A stretch of DNA of 52,028 nucleotides, from NCBI GenBank assembly GCA_030747075.1, contig JASLLL010000017.1:1-52028 (forward strand), in the 5' to 3' direction. Source of the DNA: Gemmatimonadota bacterium (lineage in GTDB: Bacteria > ARS69). The position numbers and the translations under genes were made by a program. The notes under the pieces are model-generated. The model did no database searches and was not told where the DNA came from. It worked only from the letters and a program-made list of their open reading frames with translations. Positions 1,677-14,725 of the stretch are shown in pieces; within the stretch, counting starts at the first letter, position 1, and each line of letters starts with the position of its first letter.

Positions 1677-2390
1677 CTACACCAGCGTCATCACCAGGAT
1701 CCCGGCGAAGAGCGCCGCGAGGCCCGCCGCACGCCCCCCTTCTCCCGAATGAACCTGCGGGAGAAGATGCGCCGTCGCGATGGCCAGGAAGGTTCCGGCG
1801 GAGACCGCCACCGCTGTGTGGACGAGCAGCGGCGAAAGTCCCTCCAGGACTGAGAACGCCAGGACTGCGCCCACCGGTGTCGCCAGCGAGAACCCGACAA
1901 TCAGAAGCGCAATTCGCGTCCGGGAGTACCCGCAGTGAAGCAGGATTCCGCTCAGCGACAGCGATGCCGGGAACTTGTGCAGAATGATCGCGGCCGCCAC
2001 CGCCCAGGACAGCTCCGGGATGGCAACGGCCGCTCCCAACGCCAAGCCGTCGATCAACGAATGAACCGTGATGCCGATGAACGCCGCCACTCCCATCCGG
2101 TGAAACGCGCACCCCTCCTCTTCGCAGGGATGGACCATAACGAACCGCTCGAGCACATAGATCAGGAGAAAGCCAGCGAGTACCGGCGGCCCCACATCCG
2201 GCCCGAGAAGTCCCACGGCTTCCGGAATCATATGCGTGAATGCGGCACCCAGAAGGACCCCCGTCCCGAATGCCAGAAGGAGACGGAGGGTCGCGCGGGG
2301 CCATTCCCTCGCAAGCGGGGCCAGCCCGCCCGCCAGTGTGAACAACACCGTGATCGCCAGAAGCCCGCCGAGACGAGTCAGGTCGTCCAT
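1677..2390 (-). CDS. ZIP-family metal transporter
   Basis: This 237-residue polytopic membrane protein belongs to the ZIP (zinc/iron-regulated transporter) family, which moves divalent metals into the cytoplasm. The family's metal-site helices are visible: HSLIDGLALG in the fourth helix and ILHKFPASLSLSG in the fifth, with an early HMIPE. A short loop with HPCEEEGCAFH adds possible metal-binding Cys and His. The ATG at 2390 is preferred over an in-frame start 78 bases upstream because it begins at the first hydrophobic stretch, has an AGGAAAGG-type ribosome site and lies 7 bases after the stop of the HflK-like gene. It is the last gene of the SPFH/metal operon. The metal and direction of transport are not shown by the sequence. 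Confidence 0.9.
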   Translation of the reverse strand: MDDLTRLGGLLAITVLFTLAGGLAPLAREWPRATLRLLLAFGTGVLLGAAFTHMIPEAVGLLGPDVGPPVLAGFLLIYVLERFVMVHPCEEEGCAFHRMGVAAFIGITVHSLIDGLALGAAVAIPELSWAVAAAIILHKFPASLSLSGILLHCGYSRTRIALLIVGFSLATPVGAVLAFSVLEGLSPLLVHTAVAVSAGTFLAIATAHLLPQVHSGEGGRAAGLAALFAGILVMTLV

Positions 2391-2397
2391 GAAGCGC

Positions 2398-3321
2398 CTA
2401 CCTTTCCTGCGGAAGGTCGATGATACGCAGGCCGAAGTTCGGGCCCTCCGCGCCGCGGTCCAGCACATATCGCTTCACGCGCGGCAGCACCACCTCCAGC
2501 GTCTCCAGGTACAGGCGTCGACGCGTGGCATCCGGGTTGTGGCGGTACTCTTCGCGCACTGCGTCCAGCCGACCCATCTCCCCCTCCGCCTGCGCGACCC
2601 GGGCGTCCGCGACCCCGTGCGCTCTCTCCAGCGTCCAGGTGGCTTCGCCCCGTGCACGAGGCAACACGGAGTTTGCATAGCCGGTCGCCTCGTTGATGAT
2701 GCGCTCCCTGTCCGCCGATGCGTTGGAGACATCGCGGAAGACATCGAGCACCTGACTTGGCGGGTCTACGGAGAGCAGGTTCATCGAGCCGATGGAGATC
2801 CCGACCCCCAGGTCATCGAGCCGTGCCTGCGTCTTTTCGCGAGCGACCCGCGTGATCTCCGGGCGACTCACGGTCAGGGCATCGTCCACGCCCATCCCGC
2901 CGAGGAGAGCGGTGAGTTCCGCCTCCACGATCCTCGCCATCAGGAACTGCGCCTCTTCCGAACGGTAGAGGTATCCCGGAAGGTCCACCACCGTGTACTG
3001 GATCATCATCTTCATCGAGAGGATATTCGTGTCGCCCGTCAACCAGAGCGAAAGCTCCTCCGGCGACGGGATCCCGCGAAGGAAGTCGCGCGTGATCATC
3101 CCGACACCCATCTTGTAGGCCGTCGTCGTGCGGAACTTCTCGTGCGACTCCACCGGCCACGGCACCCGATAGTGAACGCCGGAAGGCACCGCCCGTGCGA
3201 CGACCCGTCCAAACCGTTTGACGACGGCCTGCTCCTCGGGAGCCACGGTATAGATACCGCTCCCCAGCCAGACCAGCACGAGAAGCGCCCCCACCCCCCG
3301 GGCCAACTTGACGCGCGTCAT
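2398..3321 (-). CDS. HflK-like SPFH (band 7) membrane protein, second copy
   Basis: The 307-residue protein has one N-terminal membrane helix (about residues 8-25), then an SPFH/band-7 domain starting at TVAPEEQAVVKRFG and an Ala/Arg/Glu-rich coiled region (about residues 210-260). This is the layout of HflK, which with HflC forms membrane rings around the FtsH protease in well-studied bacteria. The ATG at 3321 has GGAGG seven bases upstream and overlaps the TGA of hflC by one base; a GTG three bases earlier is possible. It is a second HflK-type protein beside the HflK domain fused to the permease in the same operon. Its exact partner is unknown. Confidence 0.85.
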   Translation of the reverse strand: MTRVKLARGVGALLVLVWLGSGIYTVAPEEQAVVKRFGRVVARAVPSGVHYRVPWPVESHEKFRTTTAYKMGVGMITRDFLRGIPSPEELSLWLTGDTNILSMKMMIQYTVVDLPGYLYRSEEAQFLMARIVEAELTALLGGMGVDDALTVSRPEITRVAREKTQARLDDLGVGISIGSMNLLSVDPPSQVLDVFRDVSNASADRERIINEATGYANSVLPRARGEATWTLERAHGVADARVAQAEGEMGRLDAVREEYRHNPDATRRRLYLETLEVVLPRVKRYVLDRGAEGPNFGLRIIDLPQER

Positions 3322-4217
3322 CACTTCGCCTCCGCCATGCCGTCCACGCCCTCGGTCAGAAGCCGCATGATCTCCGCATCCGCCGGGAGGATGAGCGTGG
3401 TGTTGTCATCCAGGAAAGTCCGATACGCCTCCAGAGTTCGGGTGAACTCGTAGAAGCCGGGGTCTCGGGCGATGGCCTCTCCGTAGATGCGCGTGGCCTC
3501 GGCCTCTCCCCGTCCGCGAATGATCTCCGCGTCCCGGTATGCCTCCGAGAGAATCCGGCTCTCCTCGCGATCCGCCTGCGCACGGATCTTCCGCGCTTCT
3601 TCTTCTCCCTCCGACCGGTATCGGCGCGCAATCATCTCGCGCTCCGCCCGCATTCGTTCGAAAACACTCCGCCGGTTCTGATCCGGAAACGCCAGTCGCT
3701 TCACATCGAAATCCACGACCTCGATCCCGAACTCCTCGCCCGCCACCTTGTGCACCGCCTCTTCGATCGAATCCACCATCTCGCGGAGCCGCCGCGCGGA
3801 CGCGTCGGTGTTGATCAGTTCGTCGAAGGGAATCGCTCCGAGAGACGCCCCCAGTTCGGAGGAGATCACATCCGTCATCTGCCCCAGCGCGGCCGCTTCG
3901 GAAGGGATGGCCCGGTAGTACCTCAGTGGATCTCCCACGCGCCACAGCGCGAAGGACGCCACGACGATGTTCTTCTTGTCCTTCGTGAGGTACTCGGCCT
4001 GTACCGGTTCAAACAGGCGAAGCCGGGCGTCAAAGTGGCGCACCTGCTGTACAAACGGAATGCGAAACCGAAGCCCCGGTTCGGTGACCACCTGAACCGG
4101 ATCTCCGAACTGTGTCACCACGGCGGACTCCGTGACATCCACCGTGAATACCGACGCATAGATCACGACGCCCGCGACCACCGCGCCGAGGACGGCATTC
4201 CTCGTTCCTGATGTCAC
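3321..4217 (-). CDS. hflC: HflC-like SPFH protein (FtsH modulator type)
   Basis: This 298-residue protein resembles HflC: a single N-terminal transmembrane helix, the SPFH start VDVTESAVVTQFG, the HflC-typical FDARLRLFEP, and a basic helical run with RMRAEREMIARRYRSEGEEE near residues 190-210. HflC pairs with HflK and modulates the FtsH membrane protease. I chose the GTG at 4217 because GGAGG lies eight bases upstream; the frame is open further upstream but would run into the preceding gene. It follows the permease-HflK gene by 40 bases and overlaps the next HflK-like gene, so all are probably one transcript. HflC identity is strong. A link to FtsH here is inferred, since no ftsH is in the window. 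Confidence 0.88.
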   Translation of the reverse strand: MTSGTRNAVLGAVVAGVVIYASVFTVDVTESAVVTQFGDPVQVVTEPGLRFRIPFVQQVRHFDARLRLFEPVQAEYLTKDKKNIVVASFALWRVGDPLRYYRAIPSEAAALGQMTDVISSELGASLGAIPFDELINTDASARRLREMVDSIEEAVHKVAGEEFGIEVVDFDVKRLAFPDQNRRSVFERMRAEREMIARRYRSEGEEEARKIRAQADREESRILSEAYRDAEIIRGRGEAEATRIYGEAIARDPGFYEFTRTLEAYRTFLDDNTTLILPADAEIMRLLTEGVDGMAEAK

Positions 4218-4257
4218 CTCACTCACCTCCGTTCGCGTGCTAAGTCTTTCGTGTCGA

Positions 4258-6390
4258 TCAGTTTTCCGCGCCTCCCGCGGACGGAGGCGACGCTCCCTCG
4301 AAAACCCGCGTGCCGCCGCCACTCTCAACCCCGGGCGAACCCGGGATCCACAGATCCAGCGCTCCTGCCTGAACTCCTCCGGGACGAATGACCTTCCGGC
4401 TGCCGCTCAACACATCCTCGATGGCTTCCAGATACATCCTGAGGCGCGATGCCTCCTCGTGGGCGCGAAAGGCCTCCGCTCTCTGGAAGAGGCTCCTGGA
4501 CTCCCCTTCGGCCATCCGAATGGTGCGGTCCGCCTGGCCCTCGGCCGCGGCCCGATCCCCCGCAGCCTCGCCGCGCGCGAGAATCACCGTCTCCGCCTGG
4601 TACCGCCAGGCGATGTTCACAGCCGTCTGCTTGTCCTCCTGCGCGCTCGCGACATCCCGGAACGCCGCGTGAACCTCCGGCGGCGCGTGGACGGACCGCA
4701 CGCCGAACGCCAGCACATCCACTCCCAACCCGATCTCCTGCACGCGCCGCCGCACGCCTTCTCGAACGCTCTCCTCCAGGCTCCTCCGCTCTTCGGTGTA
4801 GACTCCGTCGATGGGCCGCGCCGCCAGTTCGTCGAGAAGCTCCCCCATCGTCTCTTGCCGAAGCACCTCCTCTGGATCAGCGAAGCCCCAGACGAACGCG
4901 CCCGCGTCCGACACCCGATACCGAAGGACCGCCTTGGCGTCGAGAATGTTGCCGTCGCCCGTCAGGTGGAGAGACTCCTCCTCCAGGCGGCGATTGCCCA
5001 CGGCACCCGGATACAGCGACTCGGCGCCACCCGGAGTCCGGGAGCGAAAGCCAATCTCCACACGCCGCACGCTTCCCGTGGACACGAGCCGCGCCGTCTC
5101 CAGCGGGATGGGAAGCTTCGCGTGGATCCCTTCGGCCAGCGGCCCGCCGCGCGGCGCCCCGAAACGCTGCACCAGCCCCTGATACCCCGGCGGCACCACG
5201 AGCACGCAGGTGGACGCGACGAAGAGGAGAAGCGCGACCAGCACCAGAATGAGAAAGGCGCGACCCGACGGACGAAGACCGGTCACCCGCGCGATCCCGT
5301 TCCCGACGGCACGAAACTCCGCAGGGGCGGACGCTCGACGGAACGACCGCACCAAAAGCCCCGTGAACACCACGACCGCAGGCCAGACGATCCACCCCGG
5401 AAGACCCCGGGCGGCGGCGGACACTTCGGCCAGATCCATGCCCGACGCACCATAGACCCCATCCAGGAGTGTCCCGAGCAGAAGACTCATCCCGGCGATC
5501 ATCGAGATGTAGATCACCATGACCCGACGCCCGAAGCTCCGGGCAAGGATGGCCAGTGACCCAATGTTCGTGGCCGGTCCCGCCAGCAGAAACACCAGCG
5601 CCGCGCCCGGTGAGAGTCCTTTCAGCACGAGAGCCGCGGCGATCGGCGTGGAAGCGGAAGCGCAGATGTACATGGGGATCCCGATGAGCAGCATGATGAC
5701 CATCGGCGCCGCCCCTTCCGACAAATACCGCGTCACGATCTCCGCGGGCAGAAAGACGGAAATCAACGCGGAGATCACCAGTCCGCCCAGCATCCAGTGC
5801 GAGGTCTCGTCGAACAGTTCCCGGAAGGCCCCGGGGAAGCCCCGGCGAAGCCGGACGCCGATGCTCCCGGCGGGCGGCGCATCCGCCTCGGGCTCCTCCG
5901 CCACGCAGTCCGCGCAGGAAATCTCCTCCGGGGGCGCTTCGTCTTTCGATTCGGGCTCGGGTTCGCGCTCCGAACGCCCCCCGAACGCTTCGACCGCAAA
6001 CCCCGCGCTGAGCGCGGTCACCAGCGCCGAGAATGGCCGGAACAGCGTCATCACCGGATCCATGAGGCCGTAGGTGAGCGCGATCGAGTCGATACCGGTC
6101 TCCGGGGTGGAAATCAGAAAGGAGATGGTCGCGCCGCGCCCCGCGCCCCGCTTGCGGAGAGCCAGCGCCGTGGGCAGGACGGAGCAGGAGCAGAGCGGGA
6201 GCGGAATCCCCAGGAGCGACGCCAGGAAGATGGACCGCACTCGGCCACCACCCAGAAGCCTCTGGACCGCGCCCACCGGCATGAGCACCTGGATGCACCC
6301 GGCGACTGCGAATCCCAGAAGGATGAAGGGCGATGCCTCGCGGAAGACGGCGAGCAGTTCGCGCGGGAATGCGGTAAGAACCTCGGGCAC
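4258..6390 (-). CDS. Cu/Zn-efflux-type permease fused to an HflK-like SPFH domain
   Basis: The 710-residue protein joins two families. Residues 1-355 are a permease of the DUF318/ArsP superfamily, closest in motif to the SO_0444 Cu/Zn efflux type: GIPLPLCSCSVLP (Cys67, Cys69), FLISTPETGIDSI, MYICASAST (Cys243) and AGPATNIGSLA. A cytosolic acidic linker (about 138-175) carries a CADC pair (Cys159, Cys162). A further transmembrane helix (about 378-398) leads into an SPFH domain starting VVPPGYQGLVQRFG, followed by a helical Ala/Glu/Arg region and a Gly/Pro-rich tail. The start is the GTG at 6390 with GGAGG ten bases upstream; nothing before it resembles the family. Metal export with SPFH scaffolding is inference. 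The open frame is continuous, with no sign of a sequencing fusion. Confidence 0.88.
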   Translation of the reverse strand: MPEVLTAFPRELLAVFREASPFILLGFAVAGCIQVLMPVGAVQRLLGGGRVRSIFLASLLGIPLPLCSCSVLPTALALRKRGAGRGATISFLISTPETGIDSIALTYGLMDPVMTLFRPFSALVTALSAGFAVEAFGGRSEREPEPESKDEAPPEEISCADCVAEEPEADAPPAGSIGVRLRRGFPGAFRELFDETSHWMLGGLVISALISVFLPAEIVTRYLSEGAAPMVIMLLIGIPMYICASASTPIAAALVLKGLSPGAALVFLLAGPATNIGSLAILARSFGRRVMVIYISMIAGMSLLLGTLLDGVYGASGMDLAEVSAAARGLPGWIVWPAVVVFTGLLVRSFRRASAPAEFRAVGNGIARVTGLRPSGRAFLILVLVALLLFVASTCVLVVPPGYQGLVQRFGAPRGGPLAEGIHAKLPIPLETARLVSTGSVRRVEIGFRSRTPGGAESLYPGAVGNRRLEEESLHLTGDGNILDAKAVLRYRVSDAGAFVWGFADPEEVLRQETMGELLDELAARPIDGVYTEERRSLEESVREGVRRRVQEIGLGVDVLAFGVRSVHAPPEVHAAFRDVASAQEDKQTAVNIAWRYQAETVILARGEAAGDRAAAEGQADRTIRMAEGESRSLFQRAEAFRAHEEASRLRMYLEAIEDVLSGSRKVIRPGGVQAGALDLWIPGSPGVESGGGTRVFEGASPPSAGGAEN

Positions 6391-8456: not shown

Positions 8457-9071
8457 ATGGCCCACACTCTTCCGCCGCTTCCCTACGACTACGACGCACT
8501 CGAACCCCACATCGACGCAGAGACCATGCGCCTCCATCACGACATCCACCATCAGGGATATGTGAATGGACTGAACGCAGCCGAAGAGAAGCTGGCCGCG
8601 ATGCGAGACGGCGGAGACTTCGCCGCCATCCAGGCCGTGGAGCGGGCGCTGGCCTTCCACGGATCCGGCCACTTCAATCACTGCATCTTCTGGGAGAACA
8701 TGAGCCCGGACGGTGGAGGGGAACCCACCGGGGACCTCGCGGCGAAGATCGGCGCGGACTTCGGAAGCCACGACGCCTTCCGCGCACACTTCAGTCAGGC
8801 CGCGGCCACTGTGGAGGGGAACGGCTGGGGCATCCTCGCATGGAATCCCGCGACGGAGCGTCTGCAGGTGCTCGCCGCCATGAACCACCAGAACCAGGGT
8901 ATTCACGGAAGCATCCCGTTGCTTGTGCTGGATGTCTGGGAGCACGCGTACTACCTCAAGTACCAGAACAAGCGCCCGGCCTATATCGAGGCCTGGTGGA
9001 ATGTCGTGAACTGGAAGAATGTCGCGGACCGGTTCGACCGGGCCACTTGCCTCGCCGGGCAGTCCGCCTGA
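8457..9071 (+). CDS. sodA: Superoxide dismutase (Mn/Fe family)
   Basis: The 204-residue enzyme converts superoxide to hydrogen peroxide and oxygen in the cytoplasm; there is no signal peptide. All four metal ligands of the Mn/Fe superfamily are present: His27 in LHHDIHHQGYVN, His75 in HFNHCIFWENM, and Asp159 and His163 in LDVWEHAYY. The family signature DVWEHAYY and the Trp-rich WWNVVNW end are intact, and the length is normal. The ATG at 8457 has GGAG seven bases upstream; an in-frame upstream start would add 23 non-family residues. Whether it uses Mn or Fe cannot be fixed by eye. It has its own promoter and a strong hairpin after the stop. Confidence 0.97.
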   Translation: MAHTLPPLPYDYDALEPHIDAETMRLHHDIHHQGYVNGLNAAEEKLAAMRDGGDFAAIQAVERALAFHGSGHFNHCIFWENMSPDGGGEPTGDLAAKIGADFGSHDAFRAHFSQAAATVEGNGWGILAWNPATERLQVLAAMNHQNQGIHGSIPLLVLDVWEHAYYLKYQNKRPAYIEAWWNVVNWKNVADRFDRATCLAGQSA

Positions 9072-9088
9072 CCCGGTTCCGTGAATCG

Positions 9089-9124
9089 CCCGGGTGCGGG
9101 GGGGAGACTCTTCCCGCGCCCGGG
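9089..9124 (+). terminator. Long GC hairpin after the superoxide dismutase gene
   Basis: Bases 9089-9100 pair with 9113-9124 over 12 positions, the only imperfection being one T-G wobble, with an 11-12-base loop. No T-run follows, so it is not a textbook intrinsic terminator. It may act as a 3' stabiliser, or it could be a leader structure for yqgE, whose ribosome site begins four bases later. Confidence 0.55.
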
Positions 9125-9144
9125 AACGGAAGGGGATTCCGCCT

Positions 9145-9714
9145 GTGAAGCCTGTCGAAAAGCCCGGACGCGGAGTTCTGCTGCTGGCAAGCCCCCGCCT
9201 TCAGGATCCGAACTTCTCGCGCACGGTGGTTCTCATCTGCGACCACGGTGCCTCCGGAACCTGGGGGCTGGTCTTGAATCGACGAACTCGCTTGACCTAC
9301 GGCGAACTCATCGACGACATCCCCTTCCCCGGCGCCTCCGCCGGACCCGTTCACTGGGGTGGCCCGTGCAGCGTGGGGAGCTTCCAACTGCTGCACCGCC
9401 TCCGTCGTCCCATGGAGCCGGACCTCACCATCGGCCGGAACATCCGCCTCGGTGTGGATCCGGAAGCGCTGCGGGAACTCCTGGGCGAAAGCCTGCTGCC
9501 GGGCGAAGCGCTCCGCGCGTTCGTCGGACACGCGGGCTGGGGCGAGGGCCAGTTGGATGCGGAAATGAAGACGGGCTCCTGGATACTGGCCCGGGCGTCG
9601 TCGTCGCTGGTGTTCGACACGGAACCCGCCGCGATGTGGGCCGAGGCGCTCCGGTCTCTCGGGAACCAGTACGCCGGTCTCGCTGATTTTCCCGCCGATG
9701 TCCGCTACAACTAG
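9145..9714 (+). CDS. yqgE: YqgE/AlgH family protein (UPF0301)
   Basis: This 189-residue protein has the family hallmarks: a start like GRGVLLLASPRLQDPNFSRTV, then GLVLNRRT, WGGPC and FVGHAGWGEGQLDAEM. The biochemical function of YqgE/AlgH is not established; it was linked to alginate regulation in Pseudomonas. The start is the GTG at 9145, ten bases after GGAAGGGG. An upstream in-frame start lies inside the hairpin and adds basic residues not seen in the family. It stands alone between the dismutase hairpin and the lysine-degradation promoter. Confidence 0.92.
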   Translation: MKPVEKPGRGVLLLASPRLQDPNFSRTVVLICDHGASGTWGLVLNRRTRLTYGELIDDIPFPGASAGPVHWGGPCSVGSFQLLHRLRRPMEPDLTIGRNIRLGVDPEALRELLGESLLPGEALRAFVGHAGWGEGQLDAEMKTGSWILARASSSLVFDTEPAAMWAEALRSLGNQYAGLADFPADVRYN

Positions 9715-9743
9715 AGACACTCCGCCACCCCGTCTGGTATCCT
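9714..9743 (+). promoter_or_regulatory. Possible promoter of the lysine-degradation/Mrp gene string
   Basis: GAGACA (9714-9719) and TATCCT (9738-9743) are 18 bases apart, about 55 bases before the ATG. The same TATCCT -10 form recurs upstream of yggX and rho, which raises my confidence slightly. Confidence 0.42.
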
Positions 9744-9798
9744 CCCTGCCCGCCGGTCGACCCCGGCCTGGATCTGTCCCGGAAGGAGCGTCCGGCTC

Positions 9799-11145
9799 AT
9801 GACCGTCATCGGCATCCGAAGCGAGAAGGGCAAGGCGGGAGAGCGCCGCGTCCCCCTCATTCCACAGGATGTGGCCGCTCTCATTCGCGACCACAATCTG
9901 CGGTTTGTGGTGGAGAGTTCCGACACGCGAATCCACCCGGACGGGGAGTATGCCCACGCGGGCGCGGAGATCGCCGAAGATCTCTCCTCATGCGACATCA
10001 TCGTGGGCGTCAAGGAAGTCCCGGCGGAACGGTTGCTCCCGAAGCGCACCTATGTCTTCTTCTCGCACACGATCAAGGGCCAGCCTTACAACATGCCGCT
10101 CCTGCGTCGAGTACTCGACACAGGCTGCAACCTTCTCGATTACGAACTGATGACCGACGAAGACGGGCGGCGCACGATCGCTTTCGGACGGCACGCGGGG
10201 CTGGCCGGAGCGGTGGAGACACTGTGGGCTCTCGGTCAGCGACTGGAGTGGGAGGGCATCAAGACCCCTTTGGCCAGAGTCCGTCGCCCCGCGGAGTACG
10301 GAGGGCTGGAGGCGGCGCGTGAGGCCATCGCTTTGGTCGGTGAGGAAATCTGGTCGGATGGGTTTCCCGCCGCCGCCACGCCTGTGGTGATCGGCGTCGC
10401 CGGGTACGGTCTGGTGTCGAGCGGCGCACAGGAGATCCTCGACCTGCTTCCCGTGACGGAGACCACGGCGGAAGAACTCCCGGACGCCGTGAAGGACACG
10501 AATCCGAACTCCCTCGTGAAGGTGGTCTTCCGGGAAGAGGATCTCGTGGTTCGAAGGACGGGCGGGGAACCCTTCGACCTTCAGGAATACTATCGTCACC
10601 CGGACCGCTACCGATCCCGATTCGAAGACCACGCCGTTCACCTGACGGCTCTCATCAACTGCATCTACTGGGATGCCCGTTACCCGCGGCTGGTAACGCT
10701 CGACTTCCTGCGTCGCGCCTGGGCAGACGGAGCGCGACCGAATCTCCGTGTGATGGGAGACATCAGCTGCGACATCGACGGCTCCGTCGAGTGCACGGTC
10801 CGCGCGACGGACCCCGCGAATCCCGTGTATGTATACGATCCCGCCACCCACACCACCACAGACGGCCTGGAAGGGAACGGACCCGTGGTTCTGGCGGTGG
10901 ACATTCTCCCTGCCGAGATCCCCGCGGATTCGTCGCGACACTTCAGTTCGCTGCTCGCACCACTCATTCCGGGACTGGCGGGCGCCGACGCAGAGCAGGG
11001 GCCGGATGCTCCCGGTCTCCCCGGAGAACTGCGAAGAGCTTTCATCGCCTCCCGGGGGAGGCTCGTTCCACCATGGGACGAGCGCCTTCGAGAGGCTCTC
11101 GAACTCCACGGATCAGGCGCCGCGGGCGCGACGGAGGAATCGTGA
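9799..11145 (+). CDS. Lysine-ketoglutarate reductase (saccharopine dehydrogenase, lysine-forming type)
   Basis: This 448-residue enzyme joins lysine and 2-oxoglutarate into saccharopine using NADPH, the first step of the saccharopine route of lysine breakdown. It resembles the N-terminal half of the bifunctional eukaryotic enzyme AASS: the AlaDH/PNT-like start IGIRSEKGKAGERRVPL, the signature FFSHTIKGQPYNMPLL, and the downstream LLDYELM and IAFGRHAGLAG segments. The ATG at 9799 has GGAAGGAG ten bases upstream. Its last codon overlaps the GTG of the saccharopine dehydrogenase gene (GTGA), so the two halves of the eukaryotic fusion are here separate but translationally coupled. Direction (breakdown rather than synthesis) is inferred from the pairing with the AASS-like dehydrogenase. 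Confidence 0.88.
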   Translation: MTVIGIRSEKGKAGERRVPLIPQDVAALIRDHNLRFVVESSDTRIHPDGEYAHAGAEIAEDLSSCDIIVGVKEVPAERLLPKRTYVFFSHTIKGQPYNMPLLRRVLDTGCNLLDYELMTDEDGRRTIAFGRHAGLAGAVETLWALGQRLEWEGIKTPLARVRRPAEYGGLEAAREAIALVGEEIWSDGFPAAATPVVIGVAGYGLVSSGAQEILDLLPVTETTAEELPDAVKDTNPNSLVKVVFREEDLVVRRTGGEPFDLQEYYRHPDRYRSRFEDHAVHLTALINCIYWDARYPRLVTLDFLRRAWADGARPNLRVMGDISCDIDGSVECTVRATDPANPVYVYDPATHTTTDGLEGNGPVVLAVDILPAEIPADSSRHFSSLLAPLIPGLAGADAEQGPDAPGLPGELRRAFIASRGRLVPPWDERLREALELHGSGAAGATEES

Positions 11146-12470
11146 GTCGGGTCGTTATCTTCGGGTCGGGACGGGTCGCCCGACCGGCTGTTCGCCTCCT
11201 TCTGGAAAGAGGGCAGGATGTCACCATCGCCACTGACCAGCCCGAAGCCGGCGCGCTCCTTGTGGGCGGGCACCCGAACGGGCGCGTGCTAGCGATCGAT
11301 GCGCGGCAGGAGGATGAGGTCCTCCCCGCCGTCCGGGACTCCGACATCGCCGTGAGCCTTCTGCCCGTGTCGCTGCACGAACGCATCGCGGAGGCATGCG
11401 TCTCCGAGAGGCGGCCGTTTGTGACCACCTCCTATGTCAGCCCGCAGATGGGCGGCCTCGACGACGCCGCCCGCCAGCACGGCGTTCTTCTGCTCAACGA
11501 ATGCGGAGCGGACCCGGGAATCGATCACATGGTCGCCATGGAGATGATCGACCGGATTCATGAAGCCGGAGGGCGCGTCACCGGATTCTGGTCCGTATGC
11601 GGGGGGATTCCCTCGCCGGAGTCCAACACCAACCCCATGGGCTACAAACTCTCGTGGAGTCCACGGGGGGTGGTGATGGCGGGGATGCGTCGCGCCCGCT
11701 ACATGGAAGACGGCCACATGATCCATGTGGAGCCGTACCACGCCTACGATGTCCCCCGTACCATCGCCGTCGGGGATGTGGGCGTTCTGGAGCACTATCC
11801 CAACGGCGACTCCATGAAGTACCTGGGCACTTACGGGCTGTCCGATCTCAACAACATGTACCGCGGGTCATTCCGGTGGCCCGGCTGGTGCGAAACCTGG
11901 CGGGCGATGTCACGAATCGGCCTCCTGGACAACGCGCCCGACACGGCGCTGGCGAAGCTCTCCTTTGCGGAAGCTCTCCGGCGCGCGACCGGAGCCCGTG
12001 ACGGAGTCGGCCCCGGACAGGCCGCTGCCGAAGCCCTGTCGCTCCCGCCGGATCACGAGATCCTCCAGCGCTTCGAGTGGCTGGGGCTGTTCTCCGAAGA
12101 CCGCATTCCCGAATGGGTCGAGTCCGGCGTGGACCTCCTGACCGTCCGCATGGAGAAGACCATGCACTACGCCGAAGACGAAACGGACATGCTCGTGCTG
12201 CACCACGCCATTGACTTCGTCGATGCGGACGGGCGGGAAGGGCGCGGCACCGCCACCCTCCACGAGACGGGAATCCCCGGAGGAGACTCGGCCATGGCCC
12301 GAACCGTCGCACTGCCCGCGGGCTTCGCGGTGCTTCGCATTCTGGACGGGACGATCCACGCCACGGGCGTGCGCGTGCCGGTGGAGAAGTCCATCTACGC
12401 CCCGCTCCTCGAGGACCTCACCACTTCGGGGATTGTCGCGAAGCAGGAGTGGACGGGAGACGCCTCATGA
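11142..12470 (+). CDS. Saccharopine dehydrogenase (glutamate-forming, AASS C-terminal type)
   Basis: This 442-residue enzyme oxidises saccharopine to glutamate and aminoadipate semialdehyde with NAD(P). The nucleotide-binding start VVIFGSGRVARPA is at residues 4-16. The saccharopine-site signature LLNECGADPGIDHM is present, followed by CGGIPSPE and YKLSWSPRG, all as in the C-terminal domain of eukaryotic AASS. The start is the GTG at 11142 with GGAGG four bases before it, overlapping the reductase stop. Its own stop overlaps the ATG of the first mrp gene, tying Fe-S genes into the same transcript. An aminoadipate semialdehyde dehydrogenase, the next step, is not in this window. Confidence 0.9.
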   Translation: MSRVVIFGSGRVARPAVRLLLERGQDVTIATDQPEAGALLVGGHPNGRVLAIDARQEDEVLPAVRDSDIAVSLLPVSLHERIAEACVSERRPFVTTSYVSPQMGGLDDAARQHGVLLLNECGADPGIDHMVAMEMIDRIHEAGGRVTGFWSVCGGIPSPESNTNPMGYKLSWSPRGVVMAGMRRARYMEDGHMIHVEPYHAYDVPRTIAVGDVGVLEHYPNGDSMKYLGTYGLSDLNNMYRGSFRWPGWCETWRAMSRIGLLDNAPDTALAKLSFAEALRRATGARDGVGPGQAAAEALSLPPDHEILQRFEWLGLFSEDRIPEWVESGVDLLTVRMEKTMHYAEDETDMLVLHHAIDFVDADGREGRGTATLHETGIPGGDSAMARTVALPAGFAVLRILDGTIHATGVRVPVEKSIYAPLLEDLTTSGIVAKQEWTGDAS

Positions 12471-13522
12471 CCCACGCCTCTGCCGAGGACATCCTGACCG
12501 CGCTGGGCGGGCTTCTCCTGGAGAGAATCCCGGGGAACCCCGTTCGCAACGAGATCATTCGCAATGTGGAGAGCGGGCCGGACGGAGTTGAGCTGGAACT
12601 GAACATGCCGTCACCCGAGCACCCGCGCCTCGCGGAGGCCGAAGCCGCCATCCGGCGTGCGATCGCGGAAGTTCCCGGTGCGGGAAAGGTCCGTATCCGA
12701 TCCGGCTGGAGCGTTCGCACGCCGGAGCCGGGGACCGCGCCTCCGCTCCCCGGCGTGAAGACGGTGCTTGCGGTCGCAAGCGGCAAGGGCGGCGTCGGGA
12801 AATCCACGGTCAGCGCGTACCTTGCGGTCGCGCTCTCACGCATGGGGCTTCGCGTCGGCCTTCTGGACGCCGACATTCACGGCCCGTCCGCGGCGCTCGC
12901 GCTGGGTGATCCGGGAGCCCCCGGCATCCATGAGGGCCAGAAGCTCTCCCCCGCACGAATCCAGGGCGTGGACTTTCTCTCCATGAGCCACCTCATCCCG
13001 GAGGATCAGGCGGTCGTCTGGCGAGGCCCCATGCTGCATCAGATGGTGTTGCAGTTCGCGAGTGCCGCCTGGGAGGACCTGGACATCCTCGTGCTGGACC
13101 TTCCGCCGGGAACCGGAGATGTCCAGCTCACGGTGACGCAGTCTCTTCCGGTGACCGGAGCGCTCGTCGTGACGACACCGCAGGAGATCGCGCTCATCGA
13201 CGCGCGTCGTGGCCTGCGCATGTTCCAGGACGCGAAGATCCCCGTCGTGGGACTCGTGGAGAACATGGCCCACTGGGAATGCTCCTGCGGGAAGCGGCAC
13301 ACCGTCTTCGGAGAGGGCGGCGGAGAGCGACTGTCGCAAGAGGCGGATGTTCCCCTGCTCACCGGCATCCCGCTGGACCCGGCCGCGTACCAGAGTCCGT
13401 CCGGCCCGCCGGAGGGCGGCACGCCCGGAGCCGCGGTATTTCATGCGCTGGCGGTGCAGGTCGCCACCGCGCTCGGAGGCCTCGCCATGAAACGCAACCC
13501 GTTCCGCGTCCTCAGCGCCTAG
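12467..13522 (+). CDS. mrp: Mrp/ApbC-type Fe-S carrier ATPase with N-terminal MIP18 domain
   Basis: The 351-residue protein has an N-terminal MIP18/DUF59 domain (about 5-90) and a MinD-like ATPase domain with a deviant Walker A, SGKGGVGKST, at residues 105-114. The family's DADIHGPSAA, VWRGPM and LDLPPGTGDVQL motifs follow. Mrp/ApbC proteins hold and pass Fe-S clusters to target enzymes. The usual bridging CxxC is altered here to Cys272-Ser-Cys274 (ECSCGKRH), one residue shorter. The ATG overlaps the stop of saccharopine dehydrogenase (ATGA). A second, different Mrp follows after nine bases, suggesting that the two may form a heterodimer (inference). Confidence 0.93.
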   Translation: MTHASAEDILTALGGLLLERIPGNPVRNEIIRNVESGPDGVELELNMPSPEHPRLAEAEAAIRRAIAEVPGAGKVRIRSGWSVRTPEPGTAPPLPGVKTVLAVASGKGGVGKSTVSAYLAVALSRMGLRVGLLDADIHGPSAALALGDPGAPGIHEGQKLSPARIQGVDFLSMSHLIPEDQAVVWRGPMLHQMVLQFASAAWEDLDILVLDLPPGTGDVQLTVTQSLPVTGALVVTTPQEIALIDARRGLRMFQDAKIPVVGLVENMAHWECSCGKRHTVFGEGGGERLSQEADVPLLTGIPLDPAAYQSPSGPPEGGTPGAAVFHALAVQVATALGGLAMKRNPFRVLSA

Positions 13523-13531
13523 GAGGCCGCC

Positions 13532-14725
13532 ATGTCTTCGCCCGCACCCGCGGTACTCACCGGCATCCACGATGTTCTGGCGGTCCACAGCGCCAAGGGA
13601 GGCGTCGGCAAGTCCACGGTCGCCGTCAACCTCGCGGTGAGCGCAGCTCGCCTCGGCCTGAAGGTCGGCCTTCTGGACGCCGACATCCACGGCCCCTCTG
13701 CGGCCACCATGTTCGGCTCGGGCGAGCGCCCGGAGATCTCCTCCGACGGGCTGCACGCCGTCCCGATCACACGGCACGGCGTTCGCTATCTCTCTGTCGC
13801 GAATGTCGCCCCTCCCGGTGCGCCCGTCATCTGGCGGGGCCCGATGGTCTCCTCCGCGCTGCGCCAGTTGCTGACCGAAGTGGAGTGGGGCGAACTGGAC
13901 CTTCTGGTTCTCGACCTGCCTCCGGGAACCGGCGACGCGATCCTCGCGATTTCGCAGGAGGTCGCGCTCTCCGGCGCCGTCCTCGTGACGACCCCGCAGG
14001 ACATGAGCGTCGCGGACACCCGCCGCGGGATCGGCGCGTTTCGCGTGCTCCGGGTTCCGATCCTCGGGCTGGTGGAGAACATGTCCGCTTTCGCGTGCCC
14101 GGACTGCGGGGAGTCGGCGGACCTCTTCGGAGCGGGCGGCGGAGAACGCGCTGCGAGAGAACTGGAGCTGCCCTTCCTCGGCCGCATTCCCGTCGACCCG
14201 GCGGTCACGGCATCCGGCGACGACGGCGTCCCGCTGGCCGCGGCAGACCCGGAGAGTCCGGTCAGCGTGGCCATGGACACCATCACGCGCACGGTCGTGG
14301 CGGAGATGGCGCGCATCCGCGACGATGCGCCCGGCGAGTTCCGAGTGGACTGGACCGATCTCGGCGACAGGCAGGTCCCCGACCCGCCCGACGCACCGGA
14401 CGCGCCGGGCGCTCAGGCGGACCCGGCCACGCCTTCCCGCGTCTGGCAGGCGGCGGACGATCTTCTGGGAATCCAGTGGGCCGACGGTGAGAAGACCTTC
14501 CACCGCGCCTACGATTTGCGGATGGCCTGCCCTTGCGCCGAGTGCGTGGAAGAGTGGACCCGTGAAAAACTCCCGAGTCTGGACCGCGTCCCGAGAAGTG
14601 TTCGTCCGGTCGTCCTTCGCTCGCTGGGTCGCTACGCGCTCCAGCCGTCCTGGACCGACGGACATTCCACCGGGATTCACTCGTTTGCGGATCTCCGTCG
14701 GACTGGAAGCGACAAGCCGGAGTGA
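13532..14725 (+). CDS. Second Mrp-type ATPase with C-terminal DUF971 domain
   Basis: This 397-residue paralog starts directly with the MinD-like ATPase (SAKGGVGKST at 20-29, DADIHGPSAA, IWRGPMVSSAL, LDLPPGTGDAIL) and lacks the MIP18 domain. It keeps the canonical Cys189-Pro-Asp-Cys192 pair that binds the bridging cluster. A Pro/Asp/Ala-rich linker (about 285-305) leads to a DUF971 domain (about 310-392) with LLGIQWADGEKTFHRAYDLR and CPCAECVEEW. DUF971 is often encoded beside or fused to Mrp, and its role is unsettled. GGAGG precedes the ATG by six bases. The neighbours mrp and yggX point to Fe-S assembly or repair. Confidence 0.92.
   Translation: MSSPAPAVLTGIHDVLAVHSAKGGVGKSTVAVNLAVSAARLGLKVGLLDADIHGPSAATMFGSGERPEISSDGLHAVPITRHGVRYLSVANVAPPGAPVIWRGPMVSSALRQLLTEVEWGELDLLVLDLPPGTGDAILAISQEVALSGAVLVTTPQDMSVADTRRGIGAFRVLRVPILGLVENMSAFACPDCGESADLFGAGGGERAARELELPFLGRIPVDPAVTASGDDGVPLAAADPESPVSVAMDTITRTVVAEMARIRDDAPGEFRVDWTDLGDRQVPDPPDAPDAPGAQADPATPSRVWQAADDLLGIQWADGEKTFHRAYDLRMACPCAECVEEWTREKLPSLDRVPRSVRPVVLRSLGRYALQPSWTDGHSTGIHSFADLRRTGSDKPE

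Follow-up and report, generated by a model that had tools for sequence, protein, structure and literature searches.

A putative metal exporter fused to an HflK-like subunit in a bacterial SPFH operon, and the K1-HflC-K2 trio to which it belongs

In Escherichia coli, HflK and HflC form a cage of 12 HflK-HflC dimers around FtsH (PMC12005517). The ordinary HflKC ring is known mainly as an FtsH cage, and the role of bacterial SPFH rings is an open question. Mutant fitness data show that SO_0444 is required under Zn or Cu stress in Shewanella (PMC3219624). Here, we describe an operon in which relatives of these proteins are joined. It occupies positions 1677 to 6390, on the minus strand, of a 52,028-nucleotide stretch of DNA from a Gemmatimonadota bacterium (GenBank assembly GCA_030747075.1, contig JASLLL010000017.1; the whole stretch is referred to below as the window) and consists of four genes, A-B-C-D, all present and intact. 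Gene A (K1) is a permease-HflK fusion, gene B an HflC, gene C (K2) a second, unfused HflK, and gene D a ZIP transporter. The first three constitute a K1-HflC-K2 trio that recurs in other bacteria, and we lean toward reading the operon as the code for a dedicated SPFH assembly with a metal exporter in its wall. The features of the operon are as follows.

4258-6390, minus strand: gene A (K1), 710 amino acids, GTG start with GGAGG upstream; putative SO_0444-type Cu/Zn exporter joined to an HflK-like SPFH protein
5344-6354, minus strand: permease half of gene A; NF033936 match, with PLCSCS and PETG motifs
5194-5250, minus strand: predicted HflK membrane helix at the fusion junction, after a net-positive linker (hydropathy only)
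4306-5262, minus strand: HflK half of gene A, with the SPFH core at 4609-5199; matches PDB HflK 7vhp (E 7e-20)
3321-4217, minus strand: gene B, the HflC of the trio, GTG start; TIGR01932 at 208 bits (cut-off, 134), PDB HflC at E 5e-49
2398-3321, minus strand: gene C (K2), the unfused second HflK; TIGR01933 at 188 bits (cut-off, 159), placed in the K2 clade
1677-2390, minus strand: gene D, ZIP transporter; PF02535 at 103.5 bits (gathering score, 35.1), with HSLIDG and HKFPAS motifs

A sequence-only reading of the window had proposed a tightly spaced minus-strand permease-HflK/HflC/HflK/ZIP operon, and this is borne out by the family scores and by the gaps read from the sequence. The permease half of gene A matches ArsP_1 and scores 371.5 bits against NF033936 (SO_0444), above the curated cut-off of 300, which places it in that family; Cu/Zn export by this half is putative and assigned by family. 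Genes B and C exceed the cut-offs of the HflC and HflK signatures, respectively, and the HflK half of gene A falls below (TIGR01933, 131 bits against 159.4; Band_7, 1.2e-18), so that by its sequence the C-terminal half of gene A is HflK-like but divergent. The HflK and HflC of the operon are homologous to the solved cage structures 7vhp and 7wi3. Gene D scores 56 bits against the ZupT model, far under the cut-off of 252, and may act in the direction of ZIP-type uptake. Genes A and B are separated by 40 bp, with GGAGG 8 bases ahead of the GTG of gene B; C shares one base with B (TGATG, the start of C lying on the stop of B), and 7 bp separate C from D. Given the TGATG overlap, the 7-bp gap, and the GGAGG before B, the genes look translationally coupled. 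A longer frame for gene A, reaching 6759, was dropped as open sequence only, and the start was placed at the GTG at 6390. An Rfam scan near the operon found no riboswitch or other element.

The order A-B-C-D, with A fused, is kept in five of five genomes of the window's phylum at protein identities of 49 to 75% (in one, G001, the contig begins inside A and the fusion is seen only in part), which argues that the operon is not a product of chance. In the window's own genome, rated 100% complete, there are six Band_7 genes: the three of the operon, one ordinary pair, and one further SPFH gene. The latter (G000:C7:88242-88751, locus L001; a 272-residue frame) is the best Band_7 match of the genome and stands outside both trio and pair. 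A search of this genome for CDF exporters found none; 14 of 14 control genomes have one. It encodes a single P1B ATPase, which is CopA-like, one FtsH, and one ZIP besides gene D. Because there is no CDF and the sole P1B ATPase is CopA-like, the fused protein is the only recognized candidate zinc exporter among the families searched, and it is probably the main zinc exporter of the organism.

The K1-HflC-K2 trio, defined as an exporter-HflK fusion, an HflC, and an unfused HflK in this order on one strand, as in the window operon, is a distinct family. We searched with gene A the 199 genomes that sample the phylum of locus L010 (metagenome-assembled genome ERR2206771_bin.185) and recovered the permease-HflK fusion from 11 of them (L059-L069), each time followed by HflC and HflK. 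Elsewhere among these 199 genomes, K1 begins with a P1B heavy-metal ATPase (L070), with a CDF (L071 and L073), or with a membrane domain of ∼300 residues without a Pfam match (L072, L075, and L077; L074 is cut by the contig end); in total, the trio is present in at least 16 genomes. For a domain-wide draw, 386 bacterial genomes were searched with a profile built from fused HflK domains, and the long-frame matches were fetched and read. This draw yielded SO_0444 permease trios (L080, L082, L083, L085, L086, L089, L092, L093, and L095), CDF trios (L079, L084, L087, L088, L090, L094, L096, L097, L099, L100, and L101), and one P1B ATPase trio (L091), and Pfam and NCBIfam back the exporter calls for representatives. 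Together with a search using a K2 profile (see below), the trio was found in at least 24 genomes from 16 families outside the window's phylum, including two (G440 and G410) in which K1 is cut by the contig end and the fusion is unseen.

The N terminus of K1 is therefore interchangeable among the SO_0444 permease, CDF, and P1B heavy-metal ATPase families. In a fourth type of trio, K1 carries an unassigned membrane domain and a P1B ATPase gene comes after K2. The K1 genes with the ∼300-residue N-terminal domain, which has no Pfam match, are located as follows.

L072:4873-6687: K1 with the ∼300-residue N-terminal domain
L074:1101-3104: K1 with the same type of domain
L075:5212-7122: K1 with the same type of domain
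L077:5388-7352: K1 with the same type of domain

This domain may represent another kind of transporter, or it may work together with the adjoining ATPase. As a separate observation, three permease trios have an extra trio-type HflC gene upstream of K1 (L080:11682-12620, L082:2958-3896, and L083:10766-11713); in L082, an acetamidase/formamidase-like gene (FmdA_AmdA) lies between this gene and K1.

Trio loci were chosen by long frames, and hence two controls were run, one on unfused HflK genes and one with the K2 profile. All 20 of the top-scoring unfused HflK genes that were fetched are in plain K-C pairs, and an exporter gene lies near only one of these, as a weak CDF match on the opposite strand. 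The window operon is not such a two-gene hflK-hflC unit: it has three SPFH genes, the first of them exporter-fused. The additional K2-type genes found with the K2 profile are all in trios, and the remaining fetched genes are ordinary pairs. The trios added in this way are L127 and L128, both cut by contig ends, and the CDF trios L129 and L133; the order in L127, K1 (cut)-HflC-K2-ZIP, is that of the window. Two long frames were set aside. L098 was not counted as a trio; its HflK frame of 650 residues is placed by the trees among ordinary pairs. L076 seems to be an ordinary pair whose long frame is spuriously extended. The L098 gene (L098:1161-3110, on a contig of 4.4 kb) is in itself an ordinary-clade HflK with ∼330 extra N-terminal residues that have no Pfam match.

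On a tree of 118 HflK domains, the K2 proteins of 42 trios form one group (Shimodaira-Hasegawa-like approximate likelihood ratio test [SH-aLRT] support, 93), 31 ordinary-pair HflKs, including that of E. coli, form another (support, 98) with L098 within it, and the fused K1s lie outside both. The labels K1, K2, and ordinary HflK require two changes on this tree, the minimum. On the HflC tree, all ordinary HflCs and that of L098 lie on one side of a branch with a support of 84. The K1, K2, and HflC of the window operon fall outside the groups that hold E. coli and the ordinary pairs. Pairwise distances of K1, HflC, and K2 across the 42 trios correlate at r values of 0.89 to 0.91, with 0 of 2,000 permutations as high, from which it follows that the trio is inherited as a unit. 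On the K1 tree, the exporter types are not fully sorted, with CDF needing four changes, so that repeated exporter swaps may have taken place. The sequence-only reading had staked itself on two outcomes, namely, that the neighborhood be conserved in relatives and that the SPFH proteins not cluster with ordinary FtsH partners. Both went its way, since the neighborhood is kept across the five phylum genomes and in distant groups and the SPFH proteins form separate groups on both trees.

The fused exporters keep the motifs of their families. HxxxD, the zinc/cadmium-type motif of CDF metal-site helices, is present in both helices of 13 of the 15 fused CDFs. Both fused ATPases retain CPC, DKTGT, TGES, and GDGxND, and the permeases checked have PETG or PETS in all cases and PLCSCS in most. 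From these families and motifs, the fused exporters are predicted to transport metal. The fused CDFs that were scanned match the membrane part of the family only, with no match to its C-terminal dimer domain. In all but one of the fusions listed, the linker ahead of the HflK helix is net positive (hydropathy only), which fits a cytosolic exporter C terminus and a periplasmic SPFH domain.

Metal genes also adjoin the trio. In L072, L075, and L077, the P1B ATPase gene stands directly after K2, and in L075 an ArsP-like permease lies just upstream as well; in L073, a CDF fusion, a ZntA-like ATPase gene follows K2. Counting fusions and adjoining ATPase genes, every fully readable trio neighborhood thus has a metal exporter. 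ZIP is an optional partner that is met only with the SO_0444 version. Its gene follows the permease trio in all five genomes of the window's phylum as well as in L089 and precedes it in L059-L062, L064, L065, L068, L092, and L093. ZIP and SO_0444 genes are also adjacent, and may share an open frame, at a site that has no SPFH gene (L010:2947-5607), so the pairing occurs apart from the trio.

A conjugative plasmid of Aquibium oceanicum B7 (NZ_CP018172.1) carries a CDF trio amid heavy-metal genes, as follows.

WP_072608301.1: K1, labeled HflK; Cation_efflux and Band_7 domains
WP_072608302.1: HflC
WP_072608303.1: K2, an HflK

This trio is preceded by an Nramp gene and a two-component system. It is followed by genes for a peptidylprolyl isomerase, a ZntA-like P-type ATPase with HMA domains, PCu(A)C, SCO, and DsbB. 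Annotation hides such fusions: the Aquibium CDF-HflK protein is recorded only as HflK.

The evidence strongly links the trio to metal transport; that it forms a cage, and for what purpose, we infer. Judged from sequence, the trio most likely builds an HflKC-like cage that carries the exporter and in which bare K2 takes up part of the K positions. As paralogues of the HflK/HflC pair, K1, HflC, and K2 would build a similar large ring or cage in which HflC alternates with K-type subunits and the K slots are split between exporter-bearing K1 and bare K2. Only some K positions would then bear a pump, and we propose that a bare HflK is kept because K2 dilutes the exporter-bearing subunit. The exporter would end in the cytosol and be followed by the single HflK membrane helix, which would tether it to the periplasmic SPFH wall. 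Pumps would be clustered in one walled patch of membrane, and the ion would be released within the periplasmic dome or next to it. Where the exporter is of the SO_0444 type, ZIP is often present too, and traffic at the one site would be two-way. The simplest function would be that of a walled exporter cluster. The occurrence of the trio on three unrelated exporter families, with motifs kept, favors such an exporter-bearing assembly. The proposal of the sequence-only reading that SPFH proteins here serve metal transport is supported in part, and its frame was too narrow: the unit is the trio with an interchangeable exporter, and ZIP is optional. As that reading further suggested, SPFH rings may organize or gate an efflux/uptake pair or shield the permease from proteolysis.

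Several points weigh against this assembly. Many exporters in one ring may crowd each other sterically. ZIP was not found in eight other permease trios or in any CDF or ATPase trio, using a profile from the window's phylum that may miss distant ZIPs. L081 is an exception, a permease-HflK fusion with neither HflC nor K2 in the stretch retrieved; its genome also has a full trio (L080). The trees are quick ones with moderate deep branch supports (84 to 98), and an AlphaFold2 model of the fusion (four rows) had a predicted local distance difference test score of 38 and was not used. More tentatively, and with less confidence than for the assembly described above, the trio may represent a widespread, undescribed class of machine, an SPFH cage in which three unrelated exporter folds are swapped on a K1-HflC-K2 chassis, metal being exported into or through a walled periplasmic compartment and drawn back by ZIP in some lineages.

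The trio could instead be a second FtsH-associated HflKC complex, in which the exporter is shielded from FtsH in the cage or handed over to it when metal is scarce. E. coli HflKC encloses FtsH (PMC12005517), and the single FtsH of the window's genome could serve both complexes. We consider this unlikely, since the trio groups apart from ordinary FtsH partners on the trees, no ftsH gene was found adjoining the operon, and a separate ordinary hflK-hflC pair is also present in all five phylum genomes as well as in L102, L103, L111, L121, L132, and L139. Simple multimerization, with the HflK domain standing in for an oligomerization or regulatory domain of the exporter and no cage or special site, would accord with the unmatched dimer domain of the scanned fused CDFs and with SPFH domains being known oligomerizers. 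It would leave unexplained why two further subunits, HflC and a bare HflK, have been retained and inherited together and why P1B ATPases would need an HflK domain, and it appears quite unlikely.

That efflux and uptake families share an operon, in two gene orders and in several groups, raises the idea of a periplasmic metal store, in which the exporter fills a closed SPFH dome and ZIP returns metal to the cytosol on demand, much as exporter/ZIP pairs do on yeast vacuoles. CDF and ATPase trios lack ZIP, ZIP and SO_0444 occur together without SPFH in L010, and closure of the dome is hypothetical, all of which make a store very unlikely. There is hardly any chance that unrelated genes merely run together here or that the fusion stems from a run-on frame or assembly error. 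Most of the genomes are drafts, and common descent can preserve gene order within a small family. Against this, more than 40 divergent loci, covering three exporter families and one finished plasmid, show an uninterrupted fusion, which rules out an accidental run-on frame, and neither the third gene nor the exporter accompanies unfused HflK genes. We also reject chance, and gene order due to inheritance alone, because ZIP is downstream in the window's phylum and upstream in other groups and the order of the trio is constant. An SPFH assembly with the exporter in its wall is the reading that we prefer to all of these.

The operon of the window is flanked by a divergent gene for a TPR protein upstream (6449, plus strand) and by an M1 peptidase gene downstream. 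Farther along the window (12449-14725) are two tandem genes for Mrp/MinD-like P-loop ATPases, the second with a C-terminal extension that by eye looks like DUF971. Genes resembling MinD/Mrp-type ATPases and dinitrogenase cofactor proteins (by eye) lie beside two CDF trios from different families (L084:9861-14000; L097:1827-5130 and 8844-9848).

To our knowledge, no system is known that has interchangeable metal exporters borne by an SPFH assembly; on a more cautious view, the combination is a variant of HflKC-like assemblies. Each domain family is already known, and single proteins are in databases under names such as HflK. The sequence-only reading knew of no described system of this composition, and our literature search, which left subscription journals and domain-architecture databases outside its reach, likewise found no paper describing the trio or the exporter fusions. 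Transporter fusions are not mentioned in the passages retrieved from a 2009 survey of prokaryotic SPFH proteins and a 2026 Pseudomonas survey. Here, evolution has fixed the client covalently: it is a metal exporter, from three unrelated families. The question of what SPFH rings do is thereby made testable, with a named cargo, a plasmid-borne example in a named bacterium, and the prediction that the pump depends on HflC and K2.

Like E. coli HflK-HflC (7vhp, 7wi3, and 9cz1), the trio consists by sequence of HflK- and HflC-type SPFH subunits, for which a single membrane helix and a periplasmic SPFH domain are expected. Unlike it, the trio has three subunits rather than two, the first of which carries a metal exporter, and it falls in separate HflK and HflC tree groups and is present beside an ordinary pair. 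The permease half of gene A resembles the SO_0444 family (NF033936) in scoring over the cut-off and keeping the cysteine motif, and differs in being fused to HflK within an SPFH operon; most SO_0444 relatives met in the search of the 199 genomes, and a copy on an Aureibacter plasmid, are unfused. The other versions of the trio share exporter families and motifs with FieF, ZitB, and ZntA (CDF and P1B), which are not SPFH-fused, whereas the trio CDFs are fused, and in those scanned the usual C-terminal dimer domain is not matched. Flotillin and stomatin are SPFH scaffolds that organize membrane proteins, but their partners are separate proteins; in the trio, transporter and SPFH subunit are one covalent chain.

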